A stretch of DNA of 64,000 bases from Flavobacteriaceae bacterium (lineage in GTDB: Bacteria; Bacteroidota; Bacteroidia; Flavobacteriales; Flavobacteriaceae). The stretch is taken from contig JAHEKV010000002.1 in NCBI GenBank assembly GCA_024638165.1, positions 89,134-153,133 on the forward strand. The letters are read 5' to 3'. Position numbers and translations under genes: made by a program. The notes beneath the pieces are model-generated. The model had not been told where the DNA came from. It saw only the letters and a program-made list of their open reading frames with translations, and searched no databases. This document shows positions 36,669 to 45,832 of the stretch, piece after piece; the stretch's first letter is position 1; every line of letters starts with the position of its first letter.

Positions 36669-36742
36669 GGGGGATTAGCTCAGTTGGCTAGAGCGCTTGC
36701 CTGGCAGGCAAGAGGCCACCGGTTCGAATCCGGTATTCTCCA
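36669..36742 (+). tRNA. tRNA-Ala (anticodon GGC)
   Basis: Cloverleaf: GGGGGAT/ATTCTCC acceptor, anticodon loop CTGGCAG between CTTGC/GCAAG, T-arm ACCGG-TTCGAAT-CCGGT; CCA not encoded. Confidence 0.93.
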
Positions 36743-36760
36743 CTTAAAGCACCATCAAAT

Positions 36761-36787
36761 ACGGCTCAATTTGGGCCGTGTTTTTTG
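36761..36787 (+). terminator. intrinsic terminator after tRNA-Ala
   Basis: ACGGC-tcaatttgg-GCCGT followed by a T-rich tract. Confidence 0.7.
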
Positions 36788-36929: not shown

Positions 36930-36959
36930 TTGTGTGACTCACATAAAAGAGTAGTTTTA
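36930..36959 (+). promoter_or_regulatory. candidate arg operon promoter: TTG (36930-36932), 19-nt spacer, TAGTTTTA (36952-36959)
   Basis: Resembles the Bacteroidota TTG-N19-21-TAnnTTTG promoter, one mismatch in the -7 box. Confidence 0.5.
36933..36943. promoter_or_regulatory. candidate operator TGTGA-C-TCACA inside the promoter spacer
   Basis: Perfect 5-bp inverted repeat with 1-nt centre between the -33 and -7 elements. Confidence 0.4.
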
Positions 36960-36963
36960 TCCC

Positions 36964-37023
36964 GTGAAAACGACACAGCACATTATTACTCCTATCCGAC
37001 GTATTCGTCGCCGCCGCCCGTAA
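36964..37023 (+). CDS. arginine-rich leader peptide MKTTQHIITPIRRIRRRRP (GTG start)
   Basis: GTG AAA ACG ACA CAG CAC ATT ATT ACT CCT ATC CGA CGT ATT CGT CGC CGC CGC CCG TAA, upstream of nine arginine-biosynthesis genes; 6 Arg in codons 12-18. Confidence 0.8.
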   Translation: MKTTQHIITPIRRIRRRRP

Positions 37024-37062
37024 GGGTGTAGTGCTGTTATGGAAATAGGTGAGTCCATTTCC
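36975..37062 (+). promoter_or_regulatory. candidate attenuator RNA with alternative pairings
   Basis: ACAGCAC (36975-36981) pairs with GTGCTGT (37031-37037); GGAAATaGG (37041-37049) pairs with CCATTTCC (37055-37062); GGAAATAGGTGAGT can alternatively pair imperfectly with ACTCCTATCC in the leader ORF. Confidence 0.5.
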
Positions 37063-37118: not shown

Positions 37119-37670
37119 ATGGATCTATTTATTGCCGATGAATCTTTTCATCGCTTTGCAGAACATATCTGCGACACTATTCAGGACGCTGCACAAAAGC
37201 GCGGTACAGGTATTGCCCGTCGTAGTCCTGAGTACATCAAAACAAAGATGACTAACGGTAATGCTGTTATCGCCTTAGACGGGGATACCTTTGCCGGTTT
37301 CTGTTATATCGAAGTGTGGGGCGGAAAGAACTTCGTCGCCCACTCGGGTCTTATTATTCCCGAAGAGTATAGAGGAAGAGGACTTGCCAAAGCAATTAAG
37401 TCGAAGACTCTAGAACTTTCTATTCAAAAATACCCAGAAGCTAAAATCTTTGGAATTACTACCGGGTCTGCGGTAATGAAGATCAATTATCAGTTAGGAT
37501 ATAAACCCGTCACCTTTAATGAGTTAACCGATGATCCTAAATTTTGGGACGGATGTCAAACCTGTCTCAACTACGATATCTTAACTCGAACTAACCGTAA
37601 AATGTGCCTTTGTACAGGCATGTTGTATGACAATCATTTAAATCAAAAAATCAAGAACGATGAAAAATAA
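37119..37670 (+). CDS. GNAT family N-acetyltransferase, candidate N-acylglutamate synthase of the arg operon
   Basis: LIIPEEYRGRGLAKAIKSKTLE motif; first gene of the arginine operon. Confidence 0.8.
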   Translation: MDLFIADESFHRFAEHICDTIQDAAQKRGTGIARRSPEYIKTKMTNGNAVIALDGDTFAGFCYIEVWGGKNFVAHSGLIIPEEYRGRGLAKAIKSKTLELSIQKYPEAKIFGITTGSAVMKINYQLGYKPVTFNELTDDPKFWDGCQTCLNYDILTRTNRKMCLCTGMLYDNHLNQKIKNDEK

Positions 37671-38850
37671 AGTAGTTATTGCGTATTCAGGAGGACTAGA
37701 TACCTCTTATTGCGCACACCTAATGGCAAGTGATCAGCAGAATGAGGTTTATGCGGTTACCGTGAATACAGGGGGCTTTTCAGCTACAGAGGTTGCTTCC
37801 ATTGAAGAGAAGGCCTTAGCATTCGGAGTAAGTCATTATGAGTGTATTGATGCACGCGAGCGACTCTATAACGAAGTGTTGCGTTTCTTGATTTATGGAA
37901 ATGTACTTAGAAATAATACGTATCCGTTATCGGTGAGTGCCGAACGTGCTACGCAGGCAATGGTGCTCATTGAATATGCAAAAAAGGTAGGTGCAAATGC
38001 AATCGTTCACGGTTCGACCGGAGCAGGAAACGATCAGGTTAGATTTGATTTAATCTTTAGCGTACTTGCCCCAGAAATTGAAATTATTACCCCGATTAGA
38101 GATAACACTTTATCAAGAGAAGAGGAGATTGAATACCTGAAAAGCCATGGTTATGAATTTAGCTTTGAAAAGTCGAAGTATTCAGTAAACAAAGGAATTT
38201 GGGGAACGTCTGTAGGAGGAGCAGAAACTTTAACTTCTTCTACGGGGCTTCCGGAGTCGGCTTATCCGTCACAGCTTGAAAAGTCTACTCCTGAAAAATT
38301 AATCCTTGAATTTAAGAGCGGAGAATTAAGCTCAGTAAATGGACAGACGGGTTCCCCGACTGAATTAATCACCCTGCTTGAAGAGATTGCTGCGCCCTTT
38401 GCTATTGGGAGAGATATCCATGTGGGTGATACCATTTTAGGGATTAAAGGGCGGGTTGGTTTTGAGGCTGCCGCACCTATGATTATTCTGAAAGCCCACG
38501 AACTTCTCGAAAAGCATGTGCTTACCAAGTGGCAACAATATCAAAAGCAGCAATTGGCTCAGTTTTATGGGATGTTGCTTCACGAAGGTCAATTGCTAGA
38601 CCCCGTAATGAGAGATATCGAGGCGTATCTAGAGCGTAGTCAAGAACGCGTTACAGGAGCTATTTATTTAACGCTACATCCGTATCGATTCACTTTAGAG
38701 GGTATTGAATCACCTTACGATATGATGCAGTCGAAAGTCGCCACTTACGGGGAGACCAATAAGGCGTGGGATTCTAGAGACGCTAAAGGGTTCATCAAAA
38801 TTTATAGTAACGCCATTCAAATTTCACATCATGCAAAACCGCAAGATTAA
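37660..38850 (+). CDS. argG: argininosuccinate synthase
   Basis: AYSGGLDTSYCAHLM, HGSTGAGNDQVRF. Confidence 0.97.
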   Translation: MKNKVVIAYSGGLDTSYCAHLMASDQQNEVYAVTVNTGGFSATEVASIEEKALAFGVSHYECIDARERLYNEVLRFLIYGNVLRNNTYPLSVSAERATQAMVLIEYAKKVGANAIVHGSTGAGNDQVRFDLIFSVLAPEIEIITPIRDNTLSREEEIEYLKSHGYEFSFEKSKYSVNKGIWGTSVGGAETLTSSTGLPESAYPSQLEKSTPEKLILEFKSGELSSVNGQTGSPTELITLLEEIAAPFAIGRDIHVGDTILGIKGRVGFEAAAPMIILKAHELLEKHVLTKWQQYQKQQLAQFYGMLLHEGQLLDPVMRDIEAYLERSQERVTGAIYLTLHPYRFTLEGIESPYDMMQSKVATYGETNKAWDSRDAKGFIKIYSNAIQISHHAKPQD

Positions 38851-39826
38851 GGTTGCTGTAATAGGTGCAACAGGATATACAGGAGCTGAGTTAATTCGAG
38901 TTCTCGCCTTTCATAGTGGGGTAGAACTAACACAACTCATCAGTCGATCGAAGGCGGGTCAGTCGGTGGCAGAAGTGATGCCAGAGCTTTCAAATCGACT
39001 CGATTTAAACTTTAGCGGTACCATTAATGCGGGTTCAGATGTATGGTTTCTTGCGCTTCCGCACGGGGCCTCGAAATCCTTTATAGAAGAGCACAAGGCA
39101 CTTGCTGATCAGGTTAAAATTGTTGATCTCAGCAATGAGTTTAGACATATTAACCGTTCAAAATGGGGAGGCTATCACTTTACTTTTGGGTTGCCTGAAC
39201 TAAGAAGACAGGAGATTCAAAACGCAAATCACATTGCTAATCCGGGCTGTTTCGCAACTGCAATTACCTTAGGTTTAGCACCGCTATTTCACCACTACAA
39301 AATAGACGAGCAGACCCCGATTCATAGTAACGCTACAACAGGTAGTACTGGCGCAGGGGCCTCGCTTTCAGAGACCTCACATTTCAGTTATAGACTGAAC
39401 AATCTTTCGTGGTATAAAGCTTTTACCCATCAGCATTTAGCTGAAATTGGGGAGCAACTCACCCAAAAGGCTGAAGGTGTCCCAAAGCTCTTTTTTCTTC
39501 CTCAGCGAGGAGCCTTTGCTAGAGGAATTTTTGCCACATCGTATTGTGAATTCGAAGGATCGCTTGAAGATGCCTATGACCTTTATGAAGCCTTTTACAA
39601 GGAGGCAGCCTTTACTCAGGTGGTAAAAGCACCGATATCGCTAAAGCAAGTGGTAGGCACAAATAATTGTCAAATCCATCTTCATAAACATAACGACACA
39701 CTGCTGATTACCTCTGCCATTGACAATTTATTGAAAGGCGCCGCAGGACAAGCCGTACAGAATATGAATCTCATGTTTGGCTTTGACGAATCTGAAGGGT
39801 TGCTATTTAAATCTATAGGATACTAA
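38831..39826 (+). CDS. argC: N-acetyl-gamma-glutamyl-phosphate reductase
   Basis: VIGATGYTGAELIR, ANPGCFATAITLGLAPL. Confidence 0.96.
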   Translation: MQNRKIKVAVIGATGYTGAELIRVLAFHSGVELTQLISRSKAGQSVAEVMPELSNRLDLNFSGTINAGSDVWFLALPHGASKSFIEEHKALADQVKIVDLSNEFRHINRSKWGGYHFTFGLPELRRQEIQNANHIANPGCFATAITLGLAPLFHHYKIDEQTPIHSNATTGSTGAGASLSETSHFSYRLNNLSWYKAFTHQHLAEIGEQLTQKAEGVPKLFFLPQRGAFARGIFATSYCEFEGSLEDAYDLYEAFYKEAAFTQVVKAPISLKQVVGTNNCQIHLHKHNDTLLITSAIDNLLKGAAGQAVQNMNLMFGFDESEGLLFKSIGY

Positions 39827-40623
39827 TGAAATCGACTATTGCCATCATAGGAGCAGGAAATCTGGGGTTAAGTATTGCCTCAGGCCTTCATCAAACAGGA
39901 CATTCTTTGGTACTTACTCGAAGAAAAACGGCCTCGCTTTCTAGCTGGTCAACCAGGGAGAATGTTGAGGTGACTAGCGATAACATTCAGGCAGTTACTA
40001 AAGCCGATGTAGTTATCATTGCGGTTCAGCCCAGTCAATGTGATCGTATTTTAAGACAGATAAAACAAAGTCTTCAAAAGAATTGTCTAGTCGTATGCAC
40101 GGCTGCTGGGTATCAAATTGAACAGCTCGAGGCGGTTTTAGGGTCTAACACTGCCGTTTATCGCGCCATGCCCAACACAGCCATTTCGGTACAGGCTTCA
40201 ATGACTTTAATTGCCTCGAATGAGACAGGTGTTTCTAGGCTTTCAGAGGTTGAGGAACTATTTGCACATGTTGGAGAGACCTTGGCTATTGAAGAGTCTC
40301 AAATGCAGGCCGCCACGGTGCTTTGTGCAAGTGGAATTGCTTTTTGGCTGAGACTGATCAGAGCCAATACTCAAGGAGGAGTACAATTAGGGTTTGAGTC
40401 AGAGGTGGCTTTAAAAATTGCTACCCAGACGGCTTATGGAGCGGCTCGATTACTTATCGAATCGGGAAATCACCCTGAGGCAGAGATTGATCGCGTTACC
40501 ACTCCGAGCGGATGCACGATAACCGGGCTTAATGTCATGGAGCATTCAGGAATGAGCTCGGCATTTATTCAGGGGTTAACAGCCTCTTTTGATAAAATCA
40601 ACGAAATTAAATCGACGACTTAA
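39826..40623 (+). CDS. proC: pyrroline-5-carboxylate reductase
   Basis: IIGAGNLGLSIASGL Rossmann, YRAMPNTAISV, VTTPSGCTITGL. Confidence 0.94.
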   Translation: MKSTIAIIGAGNLGLSIASGLHQTGHSLVLTRRKTASLSSWSTRENVEVTSDNIQAVTKADVVIIAVQPSQCDRILRQIKQSLQKNCLVVCTAAGYQIEQLEAVLGSNTAVYRAMPNTAISVQASMTLIASNETGVSRLSEVEELFAHVGETLAIEESQMQAATVLCASGIAFWLRLIRANTQGGVQLGFESEVALKIATQTAYGAARLLIESGNHPEAEIDRVTTPSGCTITGLNVMEHSGMSSAFIQGLTASFDKINEIKSTT

Positions 40624-40626
40624 GTT

Positions 40627-41748
40627 ATGAGTTTATATCAGGTTTACGCTCAGTATCCGATTGAATTGGTCTCGGCTAAAGGGATGGAACTTACCGACAG
40701 CAATGGGGTAAAATACACCGATTATTACGGGGGGCATGCGGTGATCTCGATCGGACACAGCCATCCGCATTATGTAAAATCACTCACCGAGCAGTTAGAA
40801 CAAATCGGGTTCTATTCGAATGTTGTTCTCAACCGTTTTCAGGAGGAACTCGCTGAGCGATTAAATGCGAAATTAAATGAGGACTACGCTTTGTTTTTGT
40901 GTAATAGTGGGGCCGAGGCAAATGAGAACGCACTCAAATTAGCTTCATTCAAGACCGGGCGAAAAAAGGTTCTCGCCTTTAAAGGGAGCTTTCACGGAAG
41001 AACTTCAGCAGTAGTTGCAGCTACAGACAATCCTTCGATTGTAGCCCCGCTCAATGCTGGTCATGAGGTCGATTTTATTCCTTTTGGTGACCACAAACAA
41101 TTAGAGCAATTATTAGCCACAGAACAGTATTGTACCGTAATTGTAGAAACTATTCAAGGAGTTGGAGGATTAGATCAACCTAGCCTAGATTTTGCTTCTG
41201 AGATTAACGAGCAATGTAAAAATACAGGCACTTTACTTATTGCAGATGAGGTTCAATCTGGTTTTGGTAGAAGCGGTAGCTTTTTTTCTTTTCAGCGCTT
41301 TGATTTAGAGCCAGACTTCATCACGATGGCCAAGGGAATGGGGAATGGATTCCCTGTTGGAGGGGTGCTCATTCACGAGAAACATGAGGCTGTTAAAAGT
41401 GAACTAGGAACTACGTTTGGCGGAAATTATCTAGCCTGTAGAGCTGCTTTAGCCGTCTTAGATGTTCTTGAAGACGAAGATTTAATTGCCAATGCAAGAG
41501 ATTTAGAGTCTCATTTTCGAGCAGAGGTTGATCGACTAGGTATCGAGGCCAAGATCAAAGGAGCAGGGCTTATGATCGGTCTAGACTTTGGAAAACCAAC
41601 GGCCGCGCTTCGTAAGACTTTATTAGAAGAAAGCCATCTATTTGTCGGGTCGTCTAGTAACCCTAATGTGGTTCGCATTCTTCCGCCCCTTAATTGTACC
41701 AAGGAGGCATTATCAACCCTCCTCAGTGAGATAAAGCGATTATCATGA
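40627..41748 (+). CDS. argD: acetylornithine/succinylornithine aminotransferase
   Basis: NSGAEANENALKLA, LLIADEVQSGFGRSG, MAKGMGNGFPVGG. Confidence 0.93.
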   Translation: MSLYQVYAQYPIELVSAKGMELTDSNGVKYTDYYGGHAVISIGHSHPHYVKSLTEQLEQIGFYSNVVLNRFQEELAERLNAKLNEDYALFLCNSGAEANENALKLASFKTGRKKVLAFKGSFHGRTSAVVAATDNPSIVAPLNAGHEVDFIPFGDHKQLEQLLATEQYCTVIVETIQGVGGLDQPSLDFASEINEQCKNTGTLLIADEVQSGFGRSGSFFSFQRFDLEPDFITMAKGMGNGFPVGGVLIHEKHEAVKSELGTTFGGNYLACRAALAVLDVLEDEDLIANARDLESHFRAEVDRLGIEAKIKGAGLMIGLDFGKPTAALRKTLLEESHLFVGSSSNPNVVRILPPLNCTKEALSTLLSEIKRLS

Positions 41749-42677
41749 AAAAATACACCAGCGTTAGAGATTTAGTGTCTGCGTCAGACGCAGTGAAAGA
41801 GGCACTCTCTTTGAAACAAAGCCAGGATATTGCAAAGCCTTACACTAAAGACAAGGTACTTTGTCTCCTGTTTTTTAACAATAGTTTGAGAACAAGGTTG
41901 AGTACTGAATTGGCAGGGATTAAGCTAGGGATGAAGGTAATGGTCATGCAAATTGGCGAGAGTGGTTGGGCCCTTGAATTTGAAGATGGGGCAATCATGA
42001 ATAGTACTAAAGCAGAGCATATCAAGGAGGCTGCTGCAGTTGTATCCCAGTACGCAAATATTATAGGAATTCGATCGTTCCCAACCCTAACTGATAAAGA
42101 GGCAGATGTTAATGACCGAGTGATGTCAGCTTTTGTTGCCCACGCTACCGTACCTGTGTTTAGTATGGAGGGCGCGGTTGAACATCCACTTCAGGCGCTT
42201 GCTGATGCGATTACAATTGCAGAGAATTGTACTTACAGGCCTAAAGTAGTTCTTAGTTGGGCGCCACACCCTAGAGCCCTTCCGCACGCAGTAGCCAATT
42301 CGTTCGCTCTTATGATGCAGGCTACCGATGTTGATTTTGTAATTACGCACCCAAAGGGATATGAATTAGACCCTGCCGTTGTAGGAGATACTAAGGTTGA
42401 ATACGATCAAGACAAAGCCTTTGAAGGGGCCGATTTTGTTTACGTCAAAAACTGGTCTCAGTTTGCCGACTATGGCGCGGTTAGTACGGGTCTCGATCAT
42501 TGGATGATCACACCTGAGAAGTTAGGGCCTGCGAAGTTTATGCACTGTCTGCCTTTAAGAAGAAACGTGATCGCAACCGATGCTGTTCTAGACTCTGAAC
42601 AATCTTTGGTGATCGAACAGGCGAATAATAGAACCTATTCTGGTGTCTACATCATTCAAAAGCTATTGGAATCATGA
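41745..42677 (+). CDS. argF': N-acyl (acetyl/succinyl)-ornithine carbamoyltransferase
   Basis: FFNNSLRTRLSTELA, HPLQALADAITI, MHCLPLRRN. Confidence 0.92.
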   Translation: MKKYTSVRDLVSASDAVKEALSLKQSQDIAKPYTKDKVLCLLFFNNSLRTRLSTELAGIKLGMKVMVMQIGESGWALEFEDGAIMNSTKAEHIKEAAAVVSQYANIIGIRSFPTLTDKEADVNDRVMSAFVAHATVPVFSMEGAVEHPLQALADAITIAENCTYRPKVVLSWAPHPRALPHAVANSFALMMQATDVDFVITHPKGYELDPAVVGDTKVEYDQDKAFEGADFVYVKNWSQFADYGAVSTGLDHWMITPEKLGPAKFMHCLPLRRNVIATDAVLDSEQSLVIEQANNRTYSGVYIIQKLLES

Positions 42678-43444
42678 GTTCTTTATTTGTTTTGAAAATC
42701 GGAGGAGAATTATTGCAATCCCCTGAAAAGTGTGATCAAGTACTACAGTATTTTGTCGCTCATCAAGGGCCAAAGATTTTGGTTCATGGTGGCGGACGAG
42801 ATGCTTCTAGCTTAAGTGAAAAAATGGGAATGCAACCCCATCTTATCGATGGCCGAAGAGTTACTGACGCCGCTCAATTAGATGTCGTTACCATGGTGTA
42901 CGCTGGCAAGGTAAACACTCAATTAGTGGCCCGATTGAATGCCTTAGGGCAAAAGGCTCTGGGGATTAATGGCTCTGACCTTGGCATCATCACTTGTGAT
43001 AAAAGACCAGCTACCCCAATTGATTACGGGTTCGTAGGAGATATTAAAGCGGTAAATGGGTCGGCTATCACCGAGCTCCTTGAATTAGGCATAACGCCTG
43101 TTTTCTCTGCGATCACTAGCGACGGACAAGGGCAATTGCTAAATACCAATGCAGACACGGTAGCAACCGCAGTGGCTACTGCATTAACCTTAGATCATAC
43201 GGTAAAATTGGCATTACTCATGGGGATCCCGGGAATCCTTCGAGATTTAGAAGACTCTGAAAGCTTAATTAAAGAACTAGATCATGCTTCTTACGAGGAG
43301 CTCAAAGCCTCGGGAGCCTTATCAGGGGGTATTCTACCGAAACTACACAATGGCTTTCAGGCTATAAACAATGGAGTTTCTGAGGTGATTATTGCCAATG
43401 AAGAAACACTCATCAATCATCAAAACACCTTATTATGTCGCTAG
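42674..43444 (+). CDS. argB: acetylglutamate kinase
   Basis: VLKIGGELL, LVHGGG, LSGGILPKL. Confidence 0.95.
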   Translation: MSSLFVLKIGGELLQSPEKCDQVLQYFVAHQGPKILVHGGGRDASSLSEKMGMQPHLIDGRRVTDAAQLDVVTMVYAGKVNTQLVARLNALGQKALGINGSDLGIITCDKRPATPIDYGFVGDIKAVNGSAITELLELGITPVFSAITSDGQGQLLNTNADTVATAVATALTLDHTVKLALLMGIPGILRDLEDSESLIKELDHASYEELKASGALSGGILPKLHNGFQAINNGVSEVIIANEETLINHQNTLLCR

Positions 43445-44508
43445 AAGAACTGACTAGCTCTGCTATCGAACTTTTAAAATCACTCATTGCCACACCTTCT
43501 TTTTCTGAGGAGGAAGATCAAACGGCTGAACGTATTGAAGCTTGGCTCAAAAAGTACGAAGTAATTACTCGGAGAGAAGGGAATAGTGTTATCGCTATTA
43601 ACAAACATGAAGACCCTTCAAAACCTTACTTTCTATTAAACTCACACCATGATACGGTGCGTCCGAACAAGGCTTACACTAGAGATCCTTTTAATCCTGA
43701 GGTGATAGACGGTAAATTATACGGGCTCGGCAGCAACGACGCAGGAGGGCCACTGGTTTCACTTATGGCCACTTTTGTTCATTTCTATAACCGTTCAGAC
43801 CTTCCTTATAACCTAGTGATGGTCGCTTCTGCCGAGGAGGAAACTGCAGGCAAAAATAGTTTGAGAGGCATTCTCCCCCTACTGCCTGAATTTGAATTGG
43901 CGATCGTAGGAGAGCCTACCTTACTCGATCTAGCTATTGCCGAAAAGGGGCTGCTCGTGTATGACGCTATTGTGAAGGGAACTCCATCACATGCGGCACA
44001 TCCTAACGATGATAATCCGATCTACAAATTAGGCGATGTACTGAAATGGTTTGAAGAACTTGAGTTTGAGAAGAAGTCTGAAATGCTCGGGAGTGTCAAG
44101 ACTACTGTGACCCAAGTTTCTGCGGGAAAACAACATAATGTAGTACCTGCTGAGGTTGCCTTGGTTGTAGACGTTCGTGTTACCGATGCCTACACTAATG
44201 AGGAAGTAGACGCTTACTTTAGAACGCATGCTCCTTGTCAAATGACTCCTCGATCAACGCATTTGAGGTCTTCAGGAATTGAGTCGAATCACCCGCTCGT
44301 GCTGGCAGGAAAGTCGCTGGGGAGAAAAACCTATGGGTCTCCGACCTTATCAGATCAGGCAGCACTTCGCTGTAAATCGATGAAAATGGGCCCCGGAGAT
44401 AGCCTTCGTTCACATCAGGCCGATGAGTTTATCTACCTTCACGAAATAGAAGAGGCAGTGGTGTTATACACTGATCTACTTGAATCTTTTTTTAAATCTA
44501 TAAACTAG
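43435..44508 (+). CDS. argE: M20 family peptidase, acylornithine deacylase (ArgE-like)
   Basis: LLNSHHDTV, YGLGSNDAGGPLV, ASAEEETAG metal-binding motifs; operon context. Confidence 0.9.
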   Translation: MSLEELTSSAIELLKSLIATPSFSEEEDQTAERIEAWLKKYEVITRREGNSVIAINKHEDPSKPYFLLNSHHDTVRPNKAYTRDPFNPEVIDGKLYGLGSNDAGGPLVSLMATFVHFYNRSDLPYNLVMVASAEEETAGKNSLRGILPLLPEFELAIVGEPTLLDLAIAEKGLLVYDAIVKGTPSHAAHPNDDNPIYKLGDVLKWFEELEFEKKSEMLGSVKTTVTQVSAGKQHNVVPAEVALVVDVRVTDAYTNEEVDAYFRTHAPCQMTPRSTHLRSSGIESNHPLVLAGKSLGRKTYGSPTLSDQAALRCKSMKMGPGDSLRSHQADEFIYLHEIEEAVVLYTDLLESFFKSIN

Positions 44509-44515
44509 TCTTGCC

Positions 44516-45832
44516 ATGAAACTTTGGGAAAAGGGAATTTCAACAGAAGCTTCTATCGAAAATTTCACTGTCGGAAACGACCGTCATTATGATCGTTACC
44601 TAGCCATCTATGATGTCAAAGCTTCGGCCGCTCATGCTAAAATGTTGCATAAATGCGGATTTTTAGAACTGCTTGAACTCAACCAATTACTAGAAGGCCT
44701 TAGCGAACTCGAAAAGCAAGTGGCTCTTGCAGATTTCAGCATTCCCGAGAGTTTCGAAGATATACATTCATACATCGAATATTACCTTACTGATAAATAC
44801 GGTTCGGTAGGAAAAAAGATTCACACCGCTCGATCTAGAAACGACCAAGTGATTACGGCGTTACAACTTTATGTAACCGATTCTTTAGAGCAGCTTATAG
44901 AAAGTACTGCTGGTTTTGCTCGCTTGTTGCTCGAATTGTCTGAAGAGTATCGCGACATTCTGATGCCGGGCTATACCCATTTGCAAGTCGCTATGCCTTC
45001 GTCGTTTGGCTTATGGCTTTCGGCTTATGCAGAAACGCTTTGTGACGACATCGTAGCCCTCAAGGCAGCCGCAGTGGTCTCGAATCAAAACCCCTTGGGT
45101 TCAGCCGCAGGCTATGGCTCAAACTTCGGTATTGATCGTCTTTTAACGACTGAACTTATCGGTTTTGAGGTAGTTAAGGTGAATTCGATTGCTTCTCAAA
45201 TGCTTCGAGGTCGAATAGAGAGAATAGCTATCAATGCCATCGCTCAATTGGGTGCTACACTAAGCAAATTAGCCGGAGATATCTGTTTATATATGGGTCA
45301 GGATTTTGGTTTTCTTTCTTTCGATGACGAAATCACAACCGGGAGTAGCATCATGCCTCATAAGAAAAATCCGGATGTGTTTGAACTCATTCGCGCTAAG
45401 GGGAATGCCTTACAAGGCGTTTCGGTACAAATCTCAACCATCCTAGCGAACTTGCCGACAGGCTATCACAGAGATCTTCAACTGACTAAGCCTATGTTGA
45501 TGGACAGTTTTTTAACTATTGAGGAGCTACTCAATATTTTTTCTTTTTCGCTTTCGAAAATGACCCCATCAAAGGCCTTACTAGAGCAAGAAAAGTACAC
45601 CTATTTGTGGAGTGTCGATACGTTAAATAGCATGGTAAGTGCTGGGATGCCGTTTAGAGATGCATATAAAAAGATGGCAGAAGACATAGCGACGAACAAT
45701 TATGTGCCGAACAAGGAGGCCGCTCATACTCATTTAGGTTCTATCGGAAACTTAGGCCTTGATCTAATTTCAAAAAAATTAGAAGCTGTGGTTCAAAGCG
45801 GGAACTATTCGGGTTTATCGAGTGAAAAGTAG
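44516..45832 (+). CDS. argH: argininosuccinate lyase
   Basis: HTARSRNDQV, GSSIMPHKKNPD. Confidence 0.97.
   Translation: MKLWEKGISTEASIENFTVGNDRHYDRYLAIYDVKASAAHAKMLHKCGFLELLELNQLLEGLSELEKQVALADFSIPESFEDIHSYIEYYLTDKYGSVGKKIHTARSRNDQVITALQLYVTDSLEQLIESTAGFARLLLELSEEYRDILMPGYTHLQVAMPSSFGLWLSAYAETLCDDIVALKAAAVVSNQNPLGSAAGYGSNFGIDRLLTTELIGFEVVKVNSIASQMLRGRIERIAINAIAQLGATLSKLAGDICLYMGQDFGFLSFDDEITTGSSIMPHKKNPDVFELIRAKGNALQGVSVQISTILANLPTGYHRDLQLTKPMLMDSFLTIEELLNIFSFSLSKMTPSKALLEQEKYTYLWSVDTLNSMVSAGMPFRDAYKKMAEDIATNNYVPNKEAAHTHLGSIGNLGLDLISKKLEAVVQSGNYSGLSSEK

Follow-up and report, generated by a model that had tools for sequence, protein, structure and literature searches.

The arginine operon and its leader ORF

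The window, by which we mean the whole 64,000-nucleotide stretch of a Flavobacteriaceae genome that was analysed (contig JAHEKV010000002.1), carries an arginine biosynthetic operon on its forward strand. The operon begins with the gene of a GNAT-family acetyltransferase (37119-37670) and continues with argG, argC, proC, argD, argF', argB, argE and argH (37660-45832), where argF' is an N-acetylornithine-carbamoyltransferase-like gene and argE an ArgE/DapE-type gene. On the upstream side, the preceding unit ends with a tRNA gene (36669-36742) and then a U-run terminator (36757-36783), suggesting that the operon has its own promoter. The interval before the GNAT gene contains a short arginine-rich leader ORF on the forward strand (36964-37023), read from the sequence and by comparison with relatives, which encodes MKTTQHIITPIRRIRRRRP and a stop in 19 codons plus the stop codon (GTG AAA ACG ACA CAG CAC ATT ATT ACT CCT ATC CGA CGT ATT CGT CGC CGC CGC CCG TAA). 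Six codons specify arginine (codons 12, 13 and 15-18), all of them of the CGN type, and 95 nt separate the end of the ORF from the GNAT ATG at 37119. At 19 residues, the ORF is missing from an ORF list with a minimum of 20 amino acids. As AGA makes up 38% of the arginine codons of the operon, the all-CGN run does not reflect background usage. The ORF, its six arginine codons, its distance from the operon and the exclusive use of CGN despite the commonness of AGA had been reported in the initial annotation of this DNA, and direct reading confirmed them.

A chance ORF is ruled out by shuffling and by conservation. In the 300 nt upstream of the GNAT gene in the window, none of 2000 dinucleotide shuffles produced a short ORF with six arginines in eight residues, and 75% of 83 non-redundant relatives have a short ORF with at least four arginines in eight residues within the 300 nt that precede GNAT, versus 2.3% of dinucleotide shuffles. 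The leader ORF upstream of GNAT-argG is in fact kept across the Flavobacteriaceae: the arginine run is retained while the flanks and the N-terminus drift, the N-terminal parts being widely different between genera. All 86 compact leaders that we gathered end in Arg-Pro-stop, with arginine at -2 in 86, at -3 in 85 and at -4 in 76 of them (consensus RRRP); because the gathering pattern contained CGCCCG, the residues at -2 and -1 are partly forced, but those at -3 and -4 are not.

When the codons of related leaders are compared in the proposed frame, 792 differences are synonymous and 1560 non-synonymous, versus 399 and 1954 in one of the other frames and 278 and 2106 in the remaining one; synonymous differences are thus 2-3 times commoner in the proposed frame, and most substitutions fall at third codon positions. 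Judged from these comparisons, the pattern is that of a coding sequence. Codon choice is equally distinctive: CGC and CGT account for 90% of the arginine codons in the leaders versus 36% in the GNAT genes of the same loci, and AGA and AGG for 4% versus 42%, the leader shares being computed without the last arginine codon, which is part of a hairpin (H1, see below). This preference for CGY fits the expected look of a sensor for one tRNA-Arg isoacceptor. The idea put forward in the initial annotation, that an arginine-rich leader peptide heads the arginine operon, is thus borne out by conservation and by the coding pattern.

A promoter of the Bacteroidota type is predicted immediately upstream (36930-36959, forward strand), with TTG at 36930-36932, a 19 nt spacer and the -7 box TAGTTTTA at 36952-36959. 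The -7 box is mapped to positions -12 to -5 in a study on Flavobacterium psychrophilum (PMC9723704), which places the predicted first base of the mRNA at 36964, the G of the leader GTG. A full 6/6 match to the -7 box precedes 77 of the 86 homologous leaders, compared with 8% for random positions. In 65 of 82 leaders the start codon lies 7-8 nt past the box, a spacing from which a leaderless mRNA is predicted, or one whose 5' UTR measures about 3-4 nt. We predict that the mRNA starts at, or a few bases from, the start codon of the leader; leaderless mRNAs are given as only 5.5% in F. psychrophilum by the same text (PMC9723704).

Hairpins H1 and H2 and their distribution

The end of the leader is embedded in a hairpin, H1 (37015-37028, forward strand), made of CGCCC (37015-37019), the loop GUAA and GGGUG (37024-37028). 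Its 5' arm consists of the last arginine codon and part of the proline codon, and the UAA stop lies inside its loop. In the window, a second hairpin, H2 (37041-37062, forward strand), follows 12 nt past H1, with GGAAAU, a bulged A, GG, the loop UGAGU, CC and AUUUCC. The H2 core AGGUGNGUCC is near-invariant and the H2 stem covaries, the variants including GGAAAU/AUUUCC, GGAAGU/ACUUCC, GGAACU/GGUUCC and GGAGCC/GGCUCC; with the core written as GGUGNGNCC, the relatives comprise 88 cases of GGTGAGTCC, 12 of GGTGTGTCC and a few others. In an alignment of 47 diverse sequences, 94.8% of the H1/H2 cells were paired and 45 double changes were observed versus 16.4 in shuffles, none of 500 shuffles being as good, and covariation was far lower when the registers were slid. 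No count rests on a further alignment in which two rows, L006 and L052, were wrongly specified. H1 is the less variable of the two, with C-G to A-U changes in three sequences. Further structure is present within the leaders themselves. In the genus of the window, an outer stem (ACAGCAC 36975-36981 with GUGCUGU 37031-37037, forward strand) encloses a hairpin CGACG-UAUU-CGUCG (36997-37010) together with H1, whereas many leaders of other genera have instead a third hairpin, H0, and the H0 region folds better than its synonymous recodings (mean z -0.98 in 52 leaders). The initial annotation had seen the arginine ORF correctly but had overlooked the H1/H2 RNA, which is the better-conserved half of the element. 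A search against all 4227 Rfam families (release 15) returned no leader or riboswitch match, the only match being the tRNA at 36669-36742; there is thus no Rfam family for the element, and the literature that we searched yielded no relevant arginine leader peptide either.

The Arg-Pro ending of the compact leaders invites a reading in which translation is arrested by the nascent chain at Arg-Arg-Pro-stop, upon binding of arginine or a related metabolite in the ribosome as in TnaC or SpeFL, rather than by tRNA charging: proline precedes the stop in 86/86 compact leaders and arginine occupies -2 in all of them. However, the proline is partly forced both by the CGCCCG used for selection and by the H1 stem; FVRA or VRV endings occur in Salinimicrobium, Gillisia and others, whose leaders keep an H1-like hairpin; and a sensor of tRNA charging would need just such a run of CGY codons. 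We therefore give this reading little probability. It is less probable still that H1 and H2 make up an RNA that binds a ligand or a protein, such as an arginine riboswitch, and to which the ORF is incidental. The strong covariation and the near-invariant H2 loop would suit such an RNA, but it would account neither for the coding constraint and the isoacceptor-specific arginine codons of the ORF nor for arginine-bearing variants in which H2 differs. In Salinimicrobium sediminis (L066), H2 is degenerate, a hairpin at its position being without the AGGUGNGUCC core, and the arginine ORF is kept.

The distance from H2 to the GNAT start is near-constant at about 50 nt (10-90% range 46-53 nt), and the sequence 3' of H2 is G-poor, then T-rich. 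A short and near-constant distance to GNAT could also be expected if the leader ORF merely boosted translation of the operon through ribosome re-initiation, with no sensing of arginine (for the general idea, see PMC4833913), but this would leave the arginine run, the CGY choice, H1/H2 and the association with arginine operons unexplained, and we regard it as very improbable. Several other roles for H2 were examined and rejected. The core contains AGGUGA (37047-37052 and homologues), the complement of the 16S anti-Shine-Dalgarno, a sequence that is normally hidden in the ribosomes of Bacteroidia. The final base of this hexamer can be A, U or C, and ribosomes of that class are described as not recognising Shine-Dalgarno sequences (PMC9976891), which speaks against its use as such. 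A second ORF through H2 (AUG GAA AUA ...) has its frame broken by insertions of 1-3 nt in relatives. The core is not a general genomic element: the genome has eight AGGTGWGTCC sites, and only this one lies in the H2 hairpin. As for a long-range pairing of the H2 loop, the window has an upstream GACUCAC that complements GUGAGUC, but this sequence precedes the predicted mRNA start and is absent in relatives.

H1 and H2 were combined in a covariance model, R1, which has a sole match in the genome (37003-37066, forward strand; 74.3 bits, E 2.6e-20). R1 is present in 128 of 201 Flavobacteriaceae genomes, nearly all from different genera, and a genome usually has a single strong match. A cross-count by hand within the family gives a match for 125 of the 139 genomes in which argC is full, versus 3 of the 62 others; in these three, argC falls just under the cut-off, the genome is incomplete, or the match is weak. 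Of 39 loci checked, 36 have R1 no more than 150 nt upstream of GNAT, and the other three have it upstream of argG. One match outside the family (L158), with no GNAT or argG nearby, was taken as a false positive.

Fourteen argC-positive Flavobacteriaceae genomes of the sample are without R1. Six have a different acetyltransferase gene before argG and a leader frame that ends in RP over a hairpin of the CCCCUAAGGGG type (L168 fits less well), five have arginine-rich leaders (L160, L162, L164, L167 and L171), two have doubtful ones (L172 and L166), and no arginine leader was found in L163. Among other Flavobacteriales families, arginine-bearing leaders occur in L028, L029/L178, L174 and L176/L177; in the family of L030/L175, the operon is present and the 420-450 nt examined contain no arginine leader. 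The H2 pentaloops UACGU and UCCGU of L029, L178 and L160 resemble the R1 loop UGNGU, suggesting a shared UNNGU. Some loci are more elaborate. Two arginine-rich ORFs in tandem are found in Gillisia-, Salinimicrobium- and Yeosuana-like loci; such tandems were seen in L016, L019, L022, L026, L106, L108, L164 and L167 (about -330 to -210 before GNAT) and in L017, L063, L091 and L098, the first ORF lying at the promoter (e.g. MNTLKNKIRPSSPGLRARSPRRRF) and the second adjoining H1/H2. In some of them, AAAAUACGU of the first ORF is able to pair with a U-rich tract, ACGUAAUUUUAAUUUUUU, further downstream, a pairing that may constitute a separate attenuator. In L159, L161, L165, L168, L169 and L170, a near-identical AACGAAAGGGGCUNNNGCCGACGAUUUAGAGUUAAUAG follows the promoter, about 330-220 nt before the acetyltransferase gene; a frame in this stretch, mostly without a normal start codon, reads NERG..RRFRVNS-stop and is arginine-rich, ahead of the leader that ends in RP.

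Arginine biosynthesis is a textbook case of control by the ArgR repressor. The genes targeted by ArgR and its ARG boxes are those found here, but ArgR (PF01316) is absent from the genome of the window and from 200 of the 201 Flavobacteriaceae genomes, the single match being marginal. In a sample of the whole phylum, 81 of 220 genomes have ArgR, and R1 and ArgR occur together only in the one genome with the marginal match; this correlation follows phylogeny and is not independent evidence for a replacement.

Terminator and antiterminator tests

The initial annotation had assumed a standard attenuator. In the classical form, a ribosome stalled at the arginine codons would shift folding from an intrinsic terminator to an antiterminator helix. 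Several features speak for it: the 5' arm of a hairpin contains arginine codons, a common position for control codons, the his leaders found in this genus and family resemble this type, and many relatives have a T-rich segment between H1 and H2. The output half of the locus argues otherwise. No U-run terminator follows H2 in the window or in the arg loci of relatives, the 8 nt past H2 being only 24% T. A loose terminator test was passed by 24 of 105 arg loci, all of them through H1 and an interrupted T-rich spacer; the window is not among these, and its own H1-H2 spacer, TAGTGCTGTTATGG, contains no U tract. By the same test, the his leaders of the same genus and family have a U-run hairpin in 10/10 loci. 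Likewise, no competing helix among the leader, the 3' arm of H1, the spacer, the arms of H2 and the downstream sequence exceeded the controls in own-versus-swapped and synonymous-recoding tests, which a helix of invariant bases alone would escape. The locus thus has two features of the classical class, a product-codon ORF in the predicted transcript of the operon and a coding constraint with conservation, but neither an intrinsic terminator nor a mutually exclusive antiterminator helix was found. Since these two defining features were not found in the output half, we do not file the arg leader as a classical attenuator, a reading that we consider improbable, and the assumption of a standard attenuator is probably wrong.

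We also examined the region after H2 for the C-rich, G-poor signature of Rho sites. G is depleted there, but a T-rich stretch is found before hisG as well, and the signature is not decisive.

A candidate ribosome-based arginine sensor

We consider it likely that the leader senses arginine by way of the ribosome and regulates the arginine operon in cis. Transcription would begin at the start codon of the leader and ribosomes would load at the 5' end of a leaderless, or nearly leaderless, mRNA. When arginyl-tRNA for CGC and CGU is scarce, the ribosome would stall on the run of CGY codons; as this run doubles as the 5' arm of H1, the hairpin would stay open and the operon would be expressed. When arginine is plentiful, the ribosome would reach the stop codon in the loop of H1 and leave; H1 would then fold beside H2 and expression would be lowered. 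Only H1 would be directly under the control of the ribosome, since a stalled ribosome would cover its 5' arm. What the comparisons show is the ORF with its coding constraint and arginine codons, the match to the promoter, both hairpins and an almost complete lack of ArgR; from these we infer the stalling, the effect of H1/H2 and, by the logic of a biosynthetic operon, the direction of regulation.

The apparent lack of an intrinsic terminator or antiterminator favours a factor-dependent readout over a classical terminator. We favour either a Rho-type premature termination in the untranslated gap of about 90 nt or a factor that would bind H2. The constant distance of about 50 nt between H2 and GNAT and the G-poor, T-rich sequence suit such a readout better than an intrinsic terminator, without constituting proof of it. 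Points that count against the proposed sensor are the lack of a U-run after H2 and of an alternative helix in our tests, the near-constant distance of H2 to GNAT, for which a terminator would have no need, a conservation of the H2 loop beyond the needs of a passive hairpin, and the loci in which we found no arginine leader (L030, L175 and L163). A bolder proposal, to which we give slightly less than even weight, is that the arginine leader and H1/H2 form an undescribed class of regulatory RNA that replaces ArgR across the Flavobacteriaceae, reading arginyl-tRNA through a ribosome that starts at the 5' end and acting, without intrinsic terminator or antiterminator, through the opening of H1 and a factor that depends on H2 (Rho, an RNA polymerase cofactor or another protein). 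The initial reading of an arginine leader peptide is right in substance and partly supported by our comparisons; it was incomplete as to the structured RNA, the near-absence of ArgR and the predicted leaderless start.

The candidate sensor resembles the his, trp, leu, thr and phe attenuators of Proteobacteria in having a short ORF at the start of the operon, codons for the product of the pathway, and control codons in the arm of a hairpin. It differs from them in that it would sense arginine, in its occurrence in Bacteroidota, in the absence of a detectable intrinsic terminator or antiterminator, in its second conserved hairpin with a near-invariant loop and in its predicted leaderless initiation. 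The comparative evidence supports the view that its sensing half works like that of an amino-acid leader-peptide attenuator. Short ORFs whose ribosome occupancy could steer Rho-dependent termination with no need of an intrinsic terminator are also known from SpeFL/orf34, MgtL and TnaC (see PMC6386406); these act on other genes and respond to other signals than the candidate arginine sensor. According to a 2010 survey, Proteobacteria and Actinobacteria were the only groups with demonstrated leader-peptide systems before the Firmicutes cases that it added (PMC2965389), and a survey of Actinobacteria reported no arginine leader peptides but mentions T-boxes for arginine elsewhere (PMC1262725). 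The study of F. psychrophilum, which belongs to the same family, reports 'strong clues' for leader-peptide attenuation of amino-acid operons, the same proposed kind of element, and its main text names no arginine leader (PMC9723704). Leader-peptide control of an arginine biosynthetic operon was not described in the literature that we searched, although subscription papers or supplements may mention it. If the proposal is true, a family-wide arginine leader would explain how arginine synthesis is regulated in a large group of bacteria free of ArgR, and it would offer a compact system in which to study ribosome-mediated control where Shine-Dalgarno initiation is not used. The work also adds a conserved RNA element that is missing from Rfam.

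The lineage carries other leader-peptide elements, as the his leaders of the same genus indicate. His leaders with a U-run terminator were seen before hisG in L181, L184, L186, L188, L192, L190, L179, L189, L197 and L195, across the genus, the family and the order, and the genome of the window has one of its own (L186). Those of L181, L184, L186 and L188 share with the arg leader the lineage and, in L181 and L184, a Bacteroidota promoter directly before the ORF, and have a run of His codons in the place of arginine; they differ from it by the U-run hairpin, of which the arg leader has none after H2. Finally, short ORFs rich in Ile and Val (IVVVRVI; IIISLINVVVIRITRI) were seen near a U-run hairpin before ilvD in L199 (-428 to -332) and L214 (-454 to -342), and are likely branched-chain leaders.
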